The notes beneath the pieces are model-generated. The model saw nothing but the letters and a program-made list of their open reading frames with translations. It was not told the DNA's origin and searched no databases. Source: Candidatus Woesearchaeota archaeon CG10_big_fil_rev_8_21_14_0_10_44_13 (GTDB lineage Archaea > Nanobdellota > Nanobdellia > Woesearchaeales > UBA12501). Taken from it: a stretch of 51,815 nt of DNA. The position numbers and the translations under genes were made by a program. The DNA lies in assembly GCA_002762985.1 (NCBI GenBank), contig PCXZ01000029.1, positions 1-51,815 of the forward strand, written 5' to 3'. Below are positions 38,595 through 47,811 of the stretch, piece after piece; positions within the stretch are counted from its first letter, which is position 1, and every line of letters starts with the position of its first letter.

Positions 38595-39080
38595 CTAACG
38601 AAAATGATCCTCTTCTGTCAAAAACCTCTCTTTCTGGGCGTCGATGACATGGTAGATCCTCTTGTCAAGCAATTCGATGCTCTCTTCCATCCTGCCCATG
38701 AACTCCTCGACATCCTTCTGCTTCCTGAATATGCCCTCTATGATGCAGCCATAACCTTCATCCACCTCATAACTATGGCTCAGGTGGAACAATGTGTTTA
38801 TGTTCTTCTGCGCAGCAAGATGCTGCTTCAGCGGACCTATCATGTCCCTGCCTGTGTTCACTATGATTATCACATGTATCGGGAACCCTAGCTTATGGAA
38901 ATCCACAAGGGATTTGTGCTCGACTACCCCCTCTTTCTCAAGGTTGTGGATTATGTCGAACAATGTCGATGCAGGGATCTTGTGCTTGCTCGATATCTCT
39001 GTGACTCTCTTCCTGCCGTCTTTCCTCAGCTCAAGTATCAACTTGATCTTCTTTTCATCCATCCCTATCAATTCCGCCAC
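38595..39080 (-). CDS. Lrp/AsnC-like transcriptional regulator
   Basis: A 161-residue protein: winged helix (RVTEISSKHKIPASTLFDIIHNLEKEG) followed by an effector-like domain (FPIHVIIIVNTGRDM, YGCIIEGIFRKQKDVEEF). The start at 39080 is GTG; an ATG six codons later is the alternative. It lies 119 bases before the decarboxylase gene in the same direction and probably governs that cluster. A large palindrome upstream (39142-39166) may be its operator. Confidence 0.75.
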   Translation of the reverse strand: MAELIGMDEKKIKLILELRKDGRKRVTEISSKHKIPASTLFDIIHNLEKEGVVEHKSLVDFHKLGFPIHVIIIVNTGRDMIGPLKQHLAAQKNINTLFHLSHSYEVDEGYGCIIEGIFRKQKDVEEFMGRMEESIELLDKRIYHVIDAQKERFLTEEDHFR

Positions 39081-39337: not shown

Positions 39338-40309
39338 ATGAAAAGGAAAGTAGTCAAACAGGGGCCTGCCACATTCATGATAAGCCTGCCCAGCAAGTGG
39401 GTCAAAAAGAATGACATAAAGCGGGGCGACGAGATGGATGTTGAAGAGGAAGGCCCTAGTCTCATTGTTAGGAAAGAGAACGAGAAAGGCGCAAGAGGCG
39501 TCAAGCAGGTGGTTCTTGATATGGGGAACATGAACAGGACATTGCTTGACAGGTATTTCGCTGAATTCTATGTAAGCGGTGTCGAAGAGATTGTCGTGCA
39601 GCTAAAGAGCAATATACTCTCAGATTACAAGCATGACTGCAATATAGAGGTGAATAAATACATAAAAAAGCTCATAGACAGGTTCATAGGGATGGAGATA
39701 ATATCGAAGACGAAAGAGAGGATAATCATACAGAGCCTGATCCCTTATGAGAAATTCGAAAAGGACAAGGTTGTGCAGAACAGGGTCTATTTCCTGATAA
39801 AGGAGTTCCTTGAGGAGTTCGTCTCGGCCCTGGACGGGAATTTCGCTGGTTTCCACAGCAGAGCATACGATTACCATGACAATATCGTGAAATTCATCTA
39901 CTATTGCCTGAGATTGCTTAATTTCTCCGATATCTTAGAAGAGAAGAAAAACAGGCTGTTCGGGCTGTTCATGGTGATAGACAAGATAATCGACAAGATA
40001 AGGCATACGAGCGAGAGGGTCTTTGAGATGAAGAAGATAACCCCTAAGATAAAGAGATACCTGAAGGAGATATTCGCTGTATTCACAGACCAGTTCGACA
40101 TGGTGCTCAAAGAGAATTATGACGTGATAGGGATAGACTCATGGATTAAGAGAAGGTATGATCTGGTGAAGAAGATCAATTCAGAGAAGTTCAGCGAGGA
40201 AGAGCTCAGGGTGATAAGCGAATGCAAGCTTATGACTGACACGAGCAATGATTTCATCGAGACTTTCATCGCTTTGAATATGGACAGGTATGTGGAGAAG
40301 GCGGCCTAA
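39338..40309 (+). CDS. AbrB-PhoU-domain regulator
   Basis: A 323-residue protein. Residues 1-50 are a SpoVT-AbrB swapped-hairpin DNA-binding domain (QGPATFMISLPSKWVKKNDIKRGD). The rest is helical and PhoU-like (LLDRYFAEFYVSGVEEI, YDYHDNIVKFIYYCLRL, KLMTDTSNDFIETFI). Such fusions are common in archaea, often linked to phosphate or ion transport, but no transporter is nearby. It is divergent from the Lrp-like gene and convergent with the kinase genes. Confidence 0.8.
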   Translation: MKRKVVKQGPATFMISLPSKWVKKNDIKRGDEMDVEEEGPSLIVRKENEKGARGVKQVVLDMGNMNRTLLDRYFAEFYVSGVEEIVVQLKSNILSDYKHDCNIEVNKYIKKLIDRFIGMEIISKTKERIIIQSLIPYEKFEKDKVVQNRVYFLIKEFLEEFVSALDGNFAGFHSRAYDYHDNIVKFIYYCLRLLNFSDILEEKKNRLFGLFMVIDKIIDKIRHTSERVFEMKKITPKIKRYLKEIFAVFTDQFDMVLKENYDVIGIDSWIKRRYDLVKKINSEKFSEEELRVISECKLMTDTSNDFIETFIALNMDRYVEKAA

Positions 40310-40348: not shown

Positions 40349-42481
40349 TTATATTGGTCGATGGGGGATTTGAGATATATCCCTGAACATCCCTGCGATC
40401 CTCTCATGGTCATCTGGGCCTGCTGTGAGGCATGCCTTGATCAGCCCCCTCACTTTAGCGTCTTTGACTGTCTCGTCAACCTCTCTCAGGTGCATCTGCA
40501 GCAATGCAGGGTTTTGATATACCTCATTCCTGTAATCTTTTATATCATCTGCTGCCAAAGTTATTGACATTGACCTTGATCTGTTGAATATGTGCTTCAG
40601 CGTCGCCATATGATACAGCACCTGGCCCAAAGACACAAGGTCATTCGGCCCGCCGTAAGCCCTGTTGCCCATCTGGCCTGCATCCCTGTCTGTTGTCGCA
40701 TTGCCAAGGTCTATTATTTTCGCCTTGGCTTTCTCTTCATTTATCAGTATGTTTGCAGGCCTTATATCCCTGTGATAAGGTATGCCTGCATTGAGTAATT
40801 CCATCAGACCGGAGAGTATCTGCGAGCCGTATTCAACAACATTATCTGCCGGCAATTTTTTATATCTCTTCAGTATGTTCTCAAGACTGTTGCCTTCTGC
40901 ATACTCTAATTTTATATAACCCCCTTCCTCAGAATAACTGATCGCTTTTACCACATGCTGCGGGTCTTTTAGCCTTAAAAAAAGTTCAGCCTCATATCTG
41001 GTATTAGTGGCATATTTCAATGCAAACCTATGCTCGTTGATATCGAATTTGCTGTTCAGATCATTCAATCTCTCTTTGATGTCGGCCGACCCGCCATCTT
41101 CGGTCTGGTTTGCCAGAAGATCCAGTATGAGTGCACCCAGCACATCAGACTGGTCCAGCAGGACAATGCCATCAGAGCCTGTGCCAAGCAAGGTTATGCT
41201 GGTGCCATATTTCAATGGCTGGGTTTTTTCATCGACAATCTCCCTCCTATTCCTCTTCAGCTCATCCTTGAATGATATCAAAACGTGCTCAAGGAGCTTT
41301 TGCATATTCCTGTTCTTATGAAGTTTTTCCCTGCAGTCGTCTTCAAGGGTTATCTTTTCAGGTGTGAACCCCAATCCGTAAAGGAATTGTATCTCCACGC
41401 CGTCAAATCTCTTGTCATAGAATTCAGCTTCTGCAGGAGAGCACCCTTCAAGATGCAATCTGAGGATATCTTCGACGCTGAATCTTGGATTGTAAGAGTA
41501 TGCTGTATCTGCATAAACTCCCGATTTGCACAAGTCTACTATATCTTTCAGGCTGAAACGCGGGGGTTTGCCGGGATAGCTGTCCATCACCGGCTTAAAG
41601 AACATGTCGCCTTCAAGGGGCATTTCCTCTTCCTTCAATGTATCAAAAAGTTTCATGACAGCAGAAACATTATGCTTCCTTAGAGATTCATTATACTCAT
41701 GTTGGCTTAAACTTTCCTTATCTACATCAATAGGGTTATTCCTTGTATATCCTTTCTCTATCTTGATGAACCTGTTTGCAATTTCTGGCTTGACGCCTTG
41801 CTGGTGGAGTTTTATGATGTGCTCGACCCAGAACTGGATGTCAAATCCATTGGCAACCTCTGAAGGGACCTTGGCAAAAGCAAGATTCAATCTATCTTCA
41901 CTCCCAAAACGGCTATCATAATCTATTGTGTCCTGGGGCAGCACTCCTTTTCTTATCAATTTCAGGACTTCGGCGGCTTTTAGCGATGGATGATAATAAT
42001 TCACGTCCTCTCCCTTAAGGCCCCTGGAGATGAATTCGCATATGTCTTCGCTGCTGAAACTTCTTGAGAACTGGTTTGCCTCTTCATGGGAGATACCTTT
42101 TTTTATCAGCTCCAATGCTGTGAGGCCGTCAAAATCATATTTATTCGCCTGATCAGCAGGGACGCCCTCCCTTGCAAAAAAGAATATATCGAGGAAAGTG
42201 AATCCTGGCTTATACCTGTTGGCATCTGCGGCAGAAAAGCCCATATTTATGAATGCCATCACATGATTGCCGCTGAAACGGTTGCCGTAAGAGTTTGCCT
42301 GCTGATAAGAGACCCCTTTGGCGTGCAACAAGGATATCTGATGGCCATCGAATTTTATGTCGTACCTATTTGCGATTCTGGGAGGGATGCCTGCCAACAG
42401 GACATGCAATAAGCCCTTCTCACTGAAGCTATTGTCGTATTCTTCTTCTGAGTCTCCGTTTAGGGTATCATCGATGCTCAT
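40349..42481 (-). CDS. 25-residue-repeat protein fused to Ser/Thr kinase-like domain
   Basis: A 710-residue protein. From about residue 31 there are eight consecutive 23-25-residue units with the consensus G(I/V)xxxxANxYxxxFxxxDIxxLxxx (for example GIPPRIANRYDIKFDG, GVSYQQANSYGNRFSG, GISHEEANQFSRSFSS), with two to three more near 320-375 after a linker. Each looks like a pair of helices. The kinase-like domain begins about 432: GTGSDG loop, Lys in FALKYA (about 489), YHRDIRPANILI (catalytic Asp about 572) and IIDLG in place of DFG. About 50 residues separate the loop from the Lys. Catalytic residues are present, so active phosphorylation is likely. Confidence 0.8.
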   Translation of the reverse strand: MSIDDTLNGDSEEEYDNSFSEKGLLHVLLAGIPPRIANRYDIKFDGHQISLLHAKGVSYQQANSYGNRFSGNHVMAFINMGFSAADANRYKPGFTFLDIFFFAREGVPADQANKYDFDGLTALELIKKGISHEEANQFSRSFSSEDICEFISRGLKGEDVNYYHPSLKAAEVLKLIRKGVLPQDTIDYDSRFGSEDRLNLAFAKVPSEVANGFDIQFWVEHIIKLHQQGVKPEIANRFIKIEKGYTRNNPIDVDKESLSQHEYNESLRKHNVSAVMKLFDTLKEEEMPLEGDMFFKPVMDSYPGKPPRFSLKDIVDLCKSGVYADTAYSYNPRFSVEDILRLHLEGCSPAEAEFYDKRFDGVEIQFLYGLGFTPEKITLEDDCREKLHKNRNMQKLLEHVLISFKDELKRNRREIVDEKTQPLKYGTSITLLGTGSDGIVLLDQSDVLGALILDLLANQTEDGGSADIKERLNDLNSKFDINEHRFALKYATNTRYEAELFLRLKDPQHVVKAISYSEEGGYIKLEYAEGNSLENILKRYKKLPADNVVEYGSQILSGLMELLNAGIPYHRDIRPANILINEEKAKAKIIDLGNATTDRDAGQMGNRAYGGPNDLVSLGQVLYHMATLKHIFNRSRSMSITLAADDIKDYRNEVYQNPALLQMHLREVDETVKDAKVRGLIKACLTAGPDDHERIAGMFRDISQIPHRPI

Positions 42482-42533
42482 CTTTTGTACCTACTTCATT
42501 ACGCAACAATATAATTCTTTTTCTTATTCTGCA

Positions 42534-44651
42534 TCATCTCTTCCCATCTTCTAGCTCCGCCACCCTCTTGATCAGCTCTTCCTTGCTCATGAAGCGGTAC
42601 TTGAGGTCAGGCTTTGCTTCTATGAACTTTTCCTTGATAAAATCCAGGTCTTCATAATGCTCCATGCATGCGAAAACTATGCCTTTGTATTCCTGGGGCA
42701 CATTTTTATCGATTCTCTGGGAGTATCCGTCTTTGAGCATGCCATTCTCATCGTACAAGTCCTTCTTTATATCAGCGAGCCTGTTGAGGTACGTTGAATT
42801 GGGTATCTTCTCCCCTTTTTCATCGGTAATAAGATTCTTGTCGGCAAACATATCGTACATGATCAGACCAAGGGCGATCACATCCAATCCCAGGCTGGCC
42901 TTCCCCTGCGGAGCTCCACGCCATCTGTTGCCTTGCTGCACGGGGAATTGTTCATCTGTTGCGATGCCGAAATCAAGGATTTTCACTATGCCCTTAGTGT
43001 TCACTTTGATGTTATTCCATCCAAGGTCCCTGTGGGTTATGCCTCTGCTTCTCAAGCTTAAGATCCCATTGAAGGTCTGGGAGCTGTAGTCCAAGACATC
43101 ACTATGGCTCAATCTCGTTTCTGAAACGATCTCACCTAATGTCTTGCCGTCAACATATTCCATCATTATGCAGTATCTGGTTTCATTGCCTTTGCTGCCT
43201 ATGAATGTCGCAATGCCCTCGCCTGCATCGTATATCCTCACCACATTCTCAAGCTCTTTATCCTCAAGCTTGGCCAGGATCTTAGCTTCTTTTGGATTGA
43301 CATTGTCAGGATCGATGACCTTAAGGGCTCTCGGCTGGTCCAGGCTCTCGCCAAACAGCTTAAAAGTTACGCCTTGTCTCCCTCTATCCCCCAGCTGATT
43401 CAATACTCCATAATCAGATATGTTTATCCTGGCGCATAATTCGAGTTCGTCAAATGAATGGCATTCATTCTTTTTAAGCACTTTCAGCAGATTCTTTATG
43501 TAATCTATGCTGGGGATTTCATAGTATCTATTCTTCAGGTGGTCAAGGATGTTATCTTTCAGTTCAGTTGAATTGTCTGCCAGATATTCGAGATTGCCAA
43601 GGTTAGAACAGATTGTGGAATTGCTGAAATTCCGCCTCATATGCACAATGAAATCCCTGAGGCCCCTGCTTGATTTGATGACAACATTCAATAACCTCCC
43701 TATGTGCTCTGGATCGGCGTTGTAAAAGCTTTTCACAAGCCTGATTGCGGTTTTTGCCGTGTGGGCTCCTTCCTCATACTCGGCAGGTGAACCTGGGCAT
43801 TTGTATAACTCATCGCACATAACAAGATATTTACCGATGAAACGGTCGGATAATGCTGTGAAAGTCTCTTTGTGCTTGTAGATTATATCTGATATGGCAT
43901 TTATTGAATTTTTGTCGTGTTTCCTATAGGTCATATAGGACATCAGTGAGATGATGTCCTTGAATTCCTCGCTATCCGACCCGAATTCCTGTTCGTAATA
44001 CCTAACGGTGTCCCTGGTCTCTCCAAGGAGGAATAAACGCAGGATGTTAGACAATCTTCTGAAACTGGGATTTTTTTCATCAGAATGGGGCCCATTCATC
44101 GAGAAATGCCCGAATCTTATGTCATCGATAAGCATGTCTAATGCTACTGAAAAGATTTTCTTAGCAGCCTCATCGCTGTACAGGTTGAATATTTTTTCAG
44201 TTGTTTGGCCATTCAAAAAATCTTCCACTAAGCCGGTAAAACCCTCGTCCCCTGTCCTGTATGCGGCGTAGCCTATGAAATTTATGAACGCTGCAGCCTT
44301 CTTCTTGTCGTCCATATCTGCAAGCCTCAAAACGCTTTCAGAAGAGAAAATACGGTTCATAAGACCTATATATTCTGCAAGCATCCTTATTTTTTTCTCT
44401 ATCGGCACAGTCGCCTGCTCTGAAGATGTATGTATCCAATTATTGAAGTAATTTGCAACGATGAGGGCATTATCTCCTTGATAGGACAGGATTGTGTCCA
44501 ATGATTGGCCTAAGACAGAGGTTTTTTCCTTACAGTGTTCATTGAGCAAGGGCATTATCCTGGCCATCTGTTCCATCATACCTTTTATCTTGACAGCCGT
44601 CTCCTCAGGATATTTCCTTTCTGCTGCTGCTATCGCCTGTTCAAGGTTCAT
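42534..44651 (-). CDS. helical protein with C-terminal Ser/Thr kinase domain
   Basis: A 705-residue protein. The first 420 residues are helical with no recognised domain. The kinase domain: GDRGRQGVTFKL (degenerate Gly loop), Lys in RALKVI, GITHRDLGWNNIKV (HRD about 541) and KILDFGIAT (DFG). It is a complete Hanks-type kinase. Its ATG overlaps the stop of the RHH gene (ATGA), and the repeat-kinase gene follows by 52 bases, so the three genes form one operon. Confidence 0.85.
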   Translation of the reverse strand: MNLEQAIAAAERKYPEETAVKIKGMMEQMARIMPLLNEHCKEKTSVLGQSLDTILSYQGDNALIVANYFNNWIHTSSEQATVPIEKKIRMLAEYIGLMNRIFSSESVLRLADMDDKKKAAAFINFIGYAAYRTGDEGFTGLVEDFLNGQTTEKIFNLYSDEAAKKIFSVALDMLIDDIRFGHFSMNGPHSDEKNPSFRRLSNILRLFLLGETRDTVRYYEQEFGSDSEEFKDIISLMSYMTYRKHDKNSINAISDIIYKHKETFTALSDRFIGKYLVMCDELYKCPGSPAEYEEGAHTAKTAIRLVKSFYNADPEHIGRLLNVVIKSSRGLRDFIVHMRRNFSNSTICSNLGNLEYLADNSTELKDNILDHLKNRYYEIPSIDYIKNLLKVLKKNECHSFDELELCARINISDYGVLNQLGDRGRQGVTFKLFGESLDQPRALKVIDPDNVNPKEAKILAKLEDKELENVVRIYDAGEGIATFIGSKGNETRYCIMMEYVDGKTLGEIVSETRLSHSDVLDYSSQTFNGILSLRSRGITHRDLGWNNIKVNTKGIVKILDFGIATDEQFPVQQGNRWRGAPQGKASLGLDVIALGLIMYDMFADKNLITDEKGEKIPNSTYLNRLADIKKDLYDENGMLKDGYSQRIDKNVPQEYKGIVFACMEHYEDLDFIKEKFIEAKPDLKYRFMSKEELIKRVAELEDGKR

Positions 44652-44788
44652 TGCGAGCCTCCGGAACCCATCCTCTTCACAGCCTCCTCTACAACATGGC
44701 TCTTGTTCCTGAAAGGCCCTTTCCTGAGAATTTCACGAATCATTATAATCGTGTCCTCATCAACAGATACGCTGATTACGTGCTTCAT
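44648..44788 (-). CDS. ribbon-helix-helix regulator of the kinase operon
   Basis: A 46-residue RHH protein: N-terminal strand (MKHVISVSVDEDT) and helices with RNKSHVVEEAVKRM. Stop and kinase start overlap (ATGA). Similar to the RHH protein at 47218-47364 (both share the strand, the xFRNKSH turn and AVKRM). RHH proteins usually act as operators of their own operon or as antitoxins; TATA box GATATATAAA at 44811-44820 and an operator at 44836-44852 lie upstream. This gene is short but well supported by the start/stop coupling and the paralogue. Confidence 0.75.
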   Translation of the reverse strand: MKHVISVSVDEDTIIMIREILRKGPFRNKSHVVEEAVKRMGSGGSQ

Positions 44789-44835
44789 GGAGCTATTAAT
44801 AACTATTAATGATATATAAAGTTTTCGATGTTTTT

Positions 44836-44852: not shown

Positions 44853-44997
44853 ATATTTTTAGAGGGTTAATTGCAAAAAAACGCTCAGGAAACCCTTTTT
44901 TTGTGTTTCATGTAGTCAGTTTTAACTACCCCCAAAAGAAAAATTTAAATATGATGGTAAATTCCTGATAAAAACATTGGGCTTAGGGGTGAAATTG

Positions 44998-45483
44998 ATG
45001 AGCGATACCATGAACGACCAGAGCAACGACAAAAAAGTTATCCTATATTTTGACAGGGACACGCAAAGAAGCTGTAAAAACAGGTCAAGATTGCTGGGTG
45101 CCCTGAATAATTACGGTGAGTTCGGTATTGTCTCGGTCAGCAGGGTCGATGATGTGGGTTTTGAAAAGGGCGCAACTGAAACGATCACAGACAGGCCTCA
45201 TGCAGCATACATAATCCATCAGGGGAGCCCAGGATATTCTGAGGTCTTAACAACAATCCTTCTTGCTGCTTCAGAAAGAGGGGAAAACCCGAAGATAGGG
45301 GTGATAACTGCACCTGACAGAATACATCTGCTTGATGATATAAGAAAAGAGGCAAGGAGTTTAGGCGTAGAAGCAGTCATTGAACCTATATGCTGCCCCC
45401 CAAATGGGTATTTCTGTAATAGAGTGGAAGACCCATGTGTGAGTAAAGGGAGAGAGACCATAAAACGGATTCTCAACAATTGA
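44998..45483 (+). CDS. hypothetical protein with receiver-like N-terminus
   Basis: A 161-residue protein from the ATG at 44998. VILYFDRDTQRSC, the HAAYIIHQGSP segment and the KIGVITAP strand suggest an alternating alpha/beta (Rossmann or receiver-like) fold. The C-terminus has five cysteines (EPICCPPNGYFCNRVEDPC). A TATA-like AAATTTAAATATG near 44940-44952 and a GGGGTGA ribosome site precede it. Family not recognised. Divergent from the RHH-kinase operon. Confidence 0.6.
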   Translation: MSDTMNDQSNDKKVILYFDRDTQRSCKNRSRLLGALNNYGEFGIVSVSRVDDVGFEKGATETITDRPHAAYIIHQGSPGYSEVLTTILLAASERGENPKIGVITAPDRIHLLDDIRKEARSLGVEAVIEPICCPPNGYFCNRVEDPCVSKGRETIKRILNN

Positions 45484-47217: not shown

Positions 47218-47364
47218 TCATCCCCCCTTCAGCATCCTCTTCACAGCAAACTCAACAATATGCGATTTATTCCTGAAATGGCCTTCATTCCGGCCTTCGC
47301 GCAGCTTGGCCTGTATCAATGCTACTGTCTCCTCATCCACGCTGATGCTTAGGCGATGCTTCAT
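47218..47364 (-). CDS. ribbon-helix-helix regulator (second copy)
   Basis: A 48-residue RHH protein (MKHRLSISVDEETV..., HFRNKSHIVEFAVKRM), paralogous to the one at 44648-44788, with four extra residues before the helix. Its ATG overlaps the TGA of the gene upstream (ATGA). It is last in a three-gene unit, not first as in the kinase operon. Convergent with lysK with a 16-base gap. Confidence 0.75.
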   Translation of the reverse strand: MKHRLSISVDEETVALIQAKLREGRNEGHFRNKSHIVEFAVKRMLKGG

Positions 47365-47585
47365 CTTCCGCAGATCTCCTTTTCCATCAGGTAGATATTG
47401 TAATTTTCCCTTTTTATGATGCCTACTACGAAAAATCCCCTGCTTAACATATCATCAGCGATCTTTTCCACAGTCGATGTCCTTATCAGAGGGTTATTGC
47501 TCCCGGCAGCCTTTCCTTCAATATGCCTGTACAGTGCGTTCTCGATGGTTTTTTTCTCATCAGAAGGCAGCCAGCATTCTCGCAT
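47361..47585 (-). CDS. small protein, possibly winged-helix-like
   Basis: About 74 residues from ATG 47585 (a TTG upstream is possible). Helices (KKTIENALYRHIEGK, VEKIADDMLSRG) followed by a two-strand hairpin (FFVVGIIKRENYNIYLMEKE) resemble a small winged helix or RHH partner. It overlaps the 3' end of the upstream gene by 26 bases and the RHH gene by ATGA. Unknown; could be a toxin-like partner of the RHH protein. Confidence 0.5.
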   Translation of the reverse strand: MRECWLPSDEKKTIENALYRHIEGKAAGSNNPLIRTSTVEKIADDMLSRGFFVVGIIKRENYNIYLMEKEICGR

Positions 47586-47811
47586 TCGGGTCCTTATAGA
47601 TTTCATCAGAATAATATACAACCTTTATTTTCTTATCATTTGCCAATTCTTCTGTCCTTTTCTGGGCATAAAAATCATTGCACAAGGTCTGGGGGTCTTT
47701 AGAAAGAGAGCCATAATAATCCCAAAGCAGTTTGTAAACCCTGCCGAGCTGTTTCCCTTCAGCAGACCTTATCTTCAGCATGCGCGGCTCTATTTTTGTA
47801 AGCTTTTCCAT
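47560..47811 (-). CDS. small basic protein heading the second RHH operon
   Basis: An 83-residue protein, lysine-rich, mixed helix/strand (RVYKLLWDYYGSLSKDPQTLC, KKIKVVYYSDEIY). No family recognised. TATA decamer GATATATAAA at 47835-47844 and operator at 47856-47876 support the start. The operon order is this gene, a winged-helix-like gene, then RHH. Confidence 0.55.
   Translation of the reverse strand: MEKLTKIEPRMLKIRSAEGKQLGRVYKLLWDYYGSLSKDPQTLCNDFYAQKRTEELANDKKIKVVYYSDEIYKDPNARMLAAF

Follow-up and report, generated by a model that had tools for sequence, protein, structure and literature searches.

The minus-strand operon of Candidatus Woesearchaeota archaeon CG10_big_fil_rev_8_21_14_0_10_44_13 described here joins a gene for a small, probable RHH regulator to two kinase genes, K2 and K1, the latter with tandem 25-residue repeats. 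It is interpreted as an intracellular signalling cassette, in which variable sensors would set Ser/Thr kinases acting on adjacent AbrB and HTH regulators and the RHH protein would regulate its own operon; we regard the case for this reading as evenly balanced. Its computed basis comprises the gene order, the repeat and its predicted fold, the catalytic residues, the neighbouring genes, the promoter and the fast divergence of the repeat; kinase activity and its control, ligand binding, substrates and the functions of the individual DNA sites are what we infer.

The window, that is, the whole stretch of DNA analysed, was one entire contig (PCXZ01000029.1, 51,815 nucleotides) of a 1.5 Mb genome. 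On the minus strand the order is RHH gene, K2 and K1 (Table 1). The ORFs confirmed the three genes at the coordinates of the first-pass annotation, including a kinase start overlapping the RHH gene: the RHH stop and the K2 start share 4 nt (ATGA), and the end of K2 is separated from the start of K1 by 52 nt. The scanned flanking genes of the window are housekeeping genes (lysyl-tRNA synthetase, another aminoacyl-tRNA synthetase, amino-acid enzymes, decarboxylases and GyrB), with no defence partner genes among them, and no HAD, IMPase or TrmB gene adjoins the locus. A 168-aa ORF (44977–45483, plus strand), divergent from the RHH gene and without a family match, lies just upstream of the class I lysyl-tRNA synthetase gene. 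Where named, the assemblies that share the system belong to Woesearchaeota and other DPANN/Nanoarchaeota.

Table 1. Coordinates of the genes, domains and promoter elements of the locus within the window.
Feature	Position	Strand	Basis or remark
Winged-HTH (AsnC/TrmB-like) regulator, 161 aa, divergent from AbrB gene	38595..39080	-	Family match; relatives at most kinase loci
AbrB/MazE-type regulator, 323 aa, convergent with K1	39338..40309	+	PF04014, E = 1.6e-7
K1 repeat-kinase, 710 aa	40349..42481	-	Repeats and Pkinase match
K1 kinase domain, about aa 427–704	40370..41203	-	HRD and DLG motifs; family signature NRAYGGPNDLVSLGQ
K1 repeat array 2, three units, aa 311–385	41327..41551	-	Profile, AlphaFold
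K1 repeat array 1, nine consecutive units of ~25 residues, aa 21–243	41753..42421	-	Profile, AlphaFold, self-similarity
K2, 705 aa	42534..44651	-	~400 residues without detected relatives, then Hanks-type Ser/Thr kinase
K2 kinase domain, about aa 411–660	42672..43421	-	Pkinase match
Probable RHH regulator, 46 aa, first gene of the operon	44648..44788	-	ORF; homologs heading seven other operons
B box, inverted repeat ATTAATA-GT-TATTAAT, between TATA and start codon	44795..44810	-	Candidate RHH operator
TATA-box-like CTTTATATATC, about -30	44811..44821	-	Aligned across eight RHH operons
A box, degenerate copy ACCACTAATTAGTAAA of ACTACT-N4-AGTAGT, -62 from RHH start codon	44835..44850	-	Aligned with six other RHH operons

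Two kinases, one of them repeat-fused and with an HRD motif, had been proposed, and both proteins exceeded the curated Pfam Pkinase cut-off of 31.7 bits (K1, 66.9 bits; K2, 72.7 bits, E = 4.1e-20) with the catalytic residues present. These are Lys489, Glu497, His570-Arg-Asp572, Asn577 and Asp591 (DLG) in K1, and Lys444, Glu455, HRD 540–542, Asn547 and DFG 560–562 in K2; the Lys, Glu, His, both Asp and Asn of K1 are invariant in a 13-sequence alignment of its family. Judged by profile and catalytic residues, K1 and K2 are Hanks-type Ser/Thr kinases. They share fold and catalytic residues with the bacterial PknA, PknB and Stk1, kinases of this type being among the top PDB hits by both Foldseek and sequence, and the kinase domain in the AlphaFold model of full K1 matched PknB-type and other kinases. 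PknA, PknB and Stk1 have described sensors, whereas the N-terminal part is a predicted solenoid in K1 and an orphan region in K2; Hanks-type kinases usually carry APE, whereas K1 has DLG and a YGGNND-type activation segment. The N-terminal ~400 residues of K2 had no homologs in 60 related genomes. As a single query against public genomes K1 gave no match, while the K1-family alignment retrieved relatives; no kinase relatives were found in viral contigs.

The repeat, with the consensus xxDIxxLxxxGVxPExANxYDxRFx, was described by the first-pass annotation as unfamiliar and as forming eight consecutive and two to three further units. Slightly more, nine and three, were found, one unit of array 1 being irregular (22–23 residues) and the last unit of array 2, which adjoins the kinase, being conserved. 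The lag-25 self-similarity of K1 was 74, whereas shuffled sequences averaged -174 (sd 23; z 10.8), and a profile built from the units of K1 alone matched arrays in other genomes, at best with E = 2.4e-57. The repeat matched no curated family in NCBIfam, nor in Pfam at the cut-off, and no sequence match was obtained in the PDB (best E 0.21). The helical solenoid put forward earlier is supported by AlphaFold: with an alignment of 11 arrays, pLDDT was above 90 over most units, and each unit was modelled as a 9-residue helix, a loop and a 4–5-residue helix, so that a two-helix solenoid is confidently predicted. Foldseek with this model returned no match in the PDB (best E 0.13) or among viral structures (best E 0.43). 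TPR, HEAT and TALE solenoids are likewise built from short helix pairs in tandem, but the K1 repeat differs from them in its 25-residue unit, its own consensus and its lack of a Pfam, PDB or Foldseek match.

Across 353 genomes of the order, a profile search of the kind suggested earlier detected the repeat in 26. Most often it forms the N-terminal part of a kinase protein, but kinase-free proteins of 300–450 aa and giant ones of 6,000–10,000 aa carry it as well. Only three further genomes, of the same class, carried it in a sample of the phylum. The giant open frames (G047:C25, L031 and L032; G121:C17, L076; G124:C7, L078) also encode PP2C, FHA, HAD, HEAT and beta-lactamase-like domains in G047, and HEAT and an acetyltransferase domain in G121; an artefactual origin of these matches was rejected, since they are open frames with FHA, PP2C, HAD or HEAT domains. 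Beyond the archaea, the repeat was detected on a plasmid of the actinobacterium Euzebya pacifica (NZ_CP031166.1, the sole plasmid record matched) by tblastn (E = 4e-6 and 3e-9) and by the repeat profile among five neighbouring proteins (E = 3.9e-16). The protein, WP_164711117.1 (L131, 2917–3510), is a 197-aa hypothetical protein consisting largely of the 25-residue repeat. The repeat is therefore not specific to archaea, and that restriction was rejected. No relative of the repeat was found in phage records; a viral origin was looked for, in these records and for the kinase in viral contigs, and not found.

The 46-aa protein fits the canonical strand-helix-helix pattern and matched a ParD-family model weakly (E = 0.0095), with no match among PDB sequences; on these grounds it is probably an RHH regulator. 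Its length corresponds to the fold alone, with no tail for toxin binding. The conservation of the order RHH–kinase–kinase was checked in other genomes and was borne out: an RHH gene heads kinase operons at seven loci (the window, G009, G001, G059, G132, G346 and G348; in G059 the first gene is a kinase by Pfam), and an eighth (G007) stands at the head of a TPR gene and an uncharacterised gene, X. The first kinase of the RHH operons has variable N-terminal parts, and the later one is usually a repeat-kinase. An order-wide profile search found distant RHH genes directly before a protein kinase gene in three more genomes (L122, L123, L125) and before an APH-type phosphotransferase gene in two (L126, L129). 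RHH genes of the same family directly precede a methyltransferase-like gene and a phosphodiesterase-like gene (L121, L127), and others precede unknown proteins, so the family is not strictly kinase-bound; several kinase clusters are without an RHH gene. The two RHH-APH loci also have a convergent AbrB gene, and RHH-enzyme-AbrB seems to be a wider pattern. The window holds a second RHH paralog on the minus strand (48 aa, ATG at 47364, 58% identical to the first), which overlaps the end of two small unmatched ORFs (47361–47621 and 47560–47811; region 47221–47811), possibly forming another small operon.

Across Woesearchaeota families a frame recurs that consists of the RHH gene, one or more kinases, the repeat-kinase, a convergent AbrB regulator and an HTH regulator, with a common promoter (ACTACT-N4-AGTAGT, TATA and TTAATAA element), and further out the flanking genes vary from one family's loci to another's. 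Within one genus (G001, G009, G007), the common flanks are a thioredoxin-reductase-like gene, 60–66% identical across the three, the RHH gene and the HTH gene. The interior from RHH to AbrB reads repK-repK-HAD in G001, K-repK-X in G009 and TPR-X in G007. These loci (L022, L021/L084 and L083, respectively) apparently occupy one chromosomal site at which the interior differs by species; their flanking redox, RHH and HTH genes are 57–90% identical. Sister repeat-kinases are 79–80% identical in the C-lobe and 30% in the repeats. This contrast in sequence identity is most simply read as fast divergence or replacement of the sensor part; recent conversion of the C-lobe is another reading.

These features also bear on a role in defence or as a toxin–antitoxin system, in which the kinases, as effectors, would arrest growth once an invader is sensed and the RHH protein would be an antitoxin-like repressor. 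Patchy presence, several kinases per locus with differing N-terminal parts, and an interior exchanged at one site would suit such a role, as would the gene order: type II toxin–antitoxin systems (ParD antitoxins, HipA kinase toxins) likewise have a small DNA-binding gene overlapping a kinase gene. Models of BREX PglW, MADS MAD6 and PD-T4-6 match the kinase core of K1 and K2, the MAD6 and PD-T4-6 kinase-domain matches being weak. However, the PADLOC and NCBIfam matches span the generic kinase core only, and the NCBIfam defence kinases scored 27–59 bits against cut-offs of 460 or more (MAD6, 36–59 bits against 460; PglW, 27–31 bits against 990). Unlike type II systems, the locus has an RHH protein whose 46 residues leave no toxin-binding tail, a kinase of Hanks rather than HipA type, and several kinases per operon. 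The housekeeping character of the scanned window flanks, the lack of kinase relatives in viral contigs and the lack of repeat relatives in phage records also argue against it, and we consider a defence or toxin–antitoxin role unlikely. The first-pass annotation, which left open "a signalling or stress/defence switch", was too broad: the genes conserved beside the kinases encode transcription regulators and, at several clusters, members of phosphatase families, and signalling fits these better than defence does.

Seven RHH operons align almost without gaps 5' of the start codon over an A box (about -60), TATA and B box; the remaining one, L054, has the TATA and B boxes and lacks the A box. In all eight, a TTAATAA-rich element lies just 3' of the TATA box; this B box coincides with the likely transcription start and in the window forms a perfect 7-2-7 inverted repeat. 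The shuffle P of the A box was 0.026 for the window copy and 0.003 or less for the other copies. When at least 10 of 12 positions were required to match, 38 A-box-like sites were found in 786 kb, roughly double the Markov expectation; 10 of them (11 with L083) stand 5' of an RHH gene or of the first kinase gene. Because some kinase genes that have no RHH gene (L025, L052, L053) are likewise preceded by an A box, this element was dropped as the main candidate for the RHH operator. The Pyrococcus TrmB site, TACT-N3-AGTA, occupies the activator position when upstream of TATA (PMC4158304); the A box resembles it in sequence and lies likewise upstream of TATA, but differs in its spacer (N4 against N3). 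Two A boxes stand before TrmB-family genes. No TrmB gene of the Pyrococcus-site group was found beside the window operon, and TrmB-family genes occur elsewhere in the same genome.

The AbrB gene and the last kinase gene converge in most clusters, and in most an HTH gene adjoins the former. The window AbrB protein scored 31.6 bits against a PF04014 cut-off of 24.7. AbrB-domain proteins of this kind are often labelled PhoU, and the C-terminal region may be PhoU-like; a PhoU domain was not found in the window protein and matched weakly in one relative (E = 0.035), and there was no match in the PDB. The broad AbrB family is present in 317 of the 353 genomes, in which its highest-scoring group is mostly kinase-adjacent. 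One clade (support 100/100) unites 17 AbrB sequences, of which 13 are kinase-linked, while members such as L080, L081, L082 and L083 have no adjoining kinase; no kinase or RHH gene adjoins any of ten control AbrB loci taken from outside this clade. These adjacency counts carry a selection bias, because the search for each of the two families, AbrB and kinase, relied in part on the other. Proximity to kinases was the reason why 14 of the 19 best-scoring AbrB genes had entered the profile. Among the other five, one is kinase-linked, via a contig break (in G009, where L021 and L084 each hold part of gene X), one belongs to the RHH-TPR-X locus, two stand beside HAD genes and one beside neither. 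A second group of kinase-linked AbrB proteins has a separate place in the tree, which indicates that the association arose or was broken several times. Several kinase clusters contain HAD or IMPase-HAD genes, and some kinase loci have TrmB-family genes beside them.

These HAD, IMPase-HAD and TrmB-family genes, together with the resemblance of the A box to the Pyrococcus TrmB site, would fit a control of phosphate or sugar-phosphate metabolism, in which the kinases, HAD and inositol-monophosphatase enzymes and AbrB and TrmB-like regulators tune central metabolism. Yet no HAD, IMPase or TrmB gene adjoins the window locus, the PhoU assignment is weak, and the variable sensors suggest many inputs and not one metabolite; this explanation seems improbable. 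It is very unlikely that the arrays are docking scaffolds only and the genes lineage-specific paralogs of no common system, with neighbours shared through chromosomal inertia: the stand-alone and giant repeat proteins and the breadth of the AbrB family agree with this, but the kinase-linked AbrB proteins come mainly from one clade, and the promoter element is common to families whose outer flanks vary.

In the signalling cassette that we favour, the RHH protein would probably autoregulate the operon by binding the inverted repeat of the B box, which lies between TATA and start codon, and a second regulator, perhaps of TrmB type, would probably act at the upstream A box. K1 and K2 would be active Ser/Thr kinases, their N-terminal parts (the solenoid of K1, the orphan region of K2) binding variable partners or ligands and setting kinase activity. 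That the solenoid would bind a partner and steer the kinase, as suggested by the first-pass annotation, draws its strongest indirect support from the much faster divergence of the repeats than of the C-lobe. The kinases would most likely phosphorylate the neighbouring AbrB-domain transcription factors, the HTH factors or both, which would then change gene expression, and the HAD-type phosphatases of the sister loci may oppose them. More tentatively, the loci may represent a new class of archaeal signalling system, with a fixed frame of RHH-promoter and AbrB/HTH genes, exchangeable sensor-kinases, a fast-diverging solenoid and one output; with such a frame, different inputs would therefore be plugged into the same transcriptional output.

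The kind of kinase is known, while the repeat family, the operon and the conserved frame appear to be undescribed in the libraries and literature searched, and no literature on such protein kinases in Woesearchaeota or DPANN archaea was found. Signal transduction of small archaea is apparently almost unstudied, and the locus offers a testable circuit from kinase to transcription factor. The compact new helical repeat may serve as a binding scaffold, and the locus exemplifies sensors that are exchangeable at a fixed position in the chromosome.
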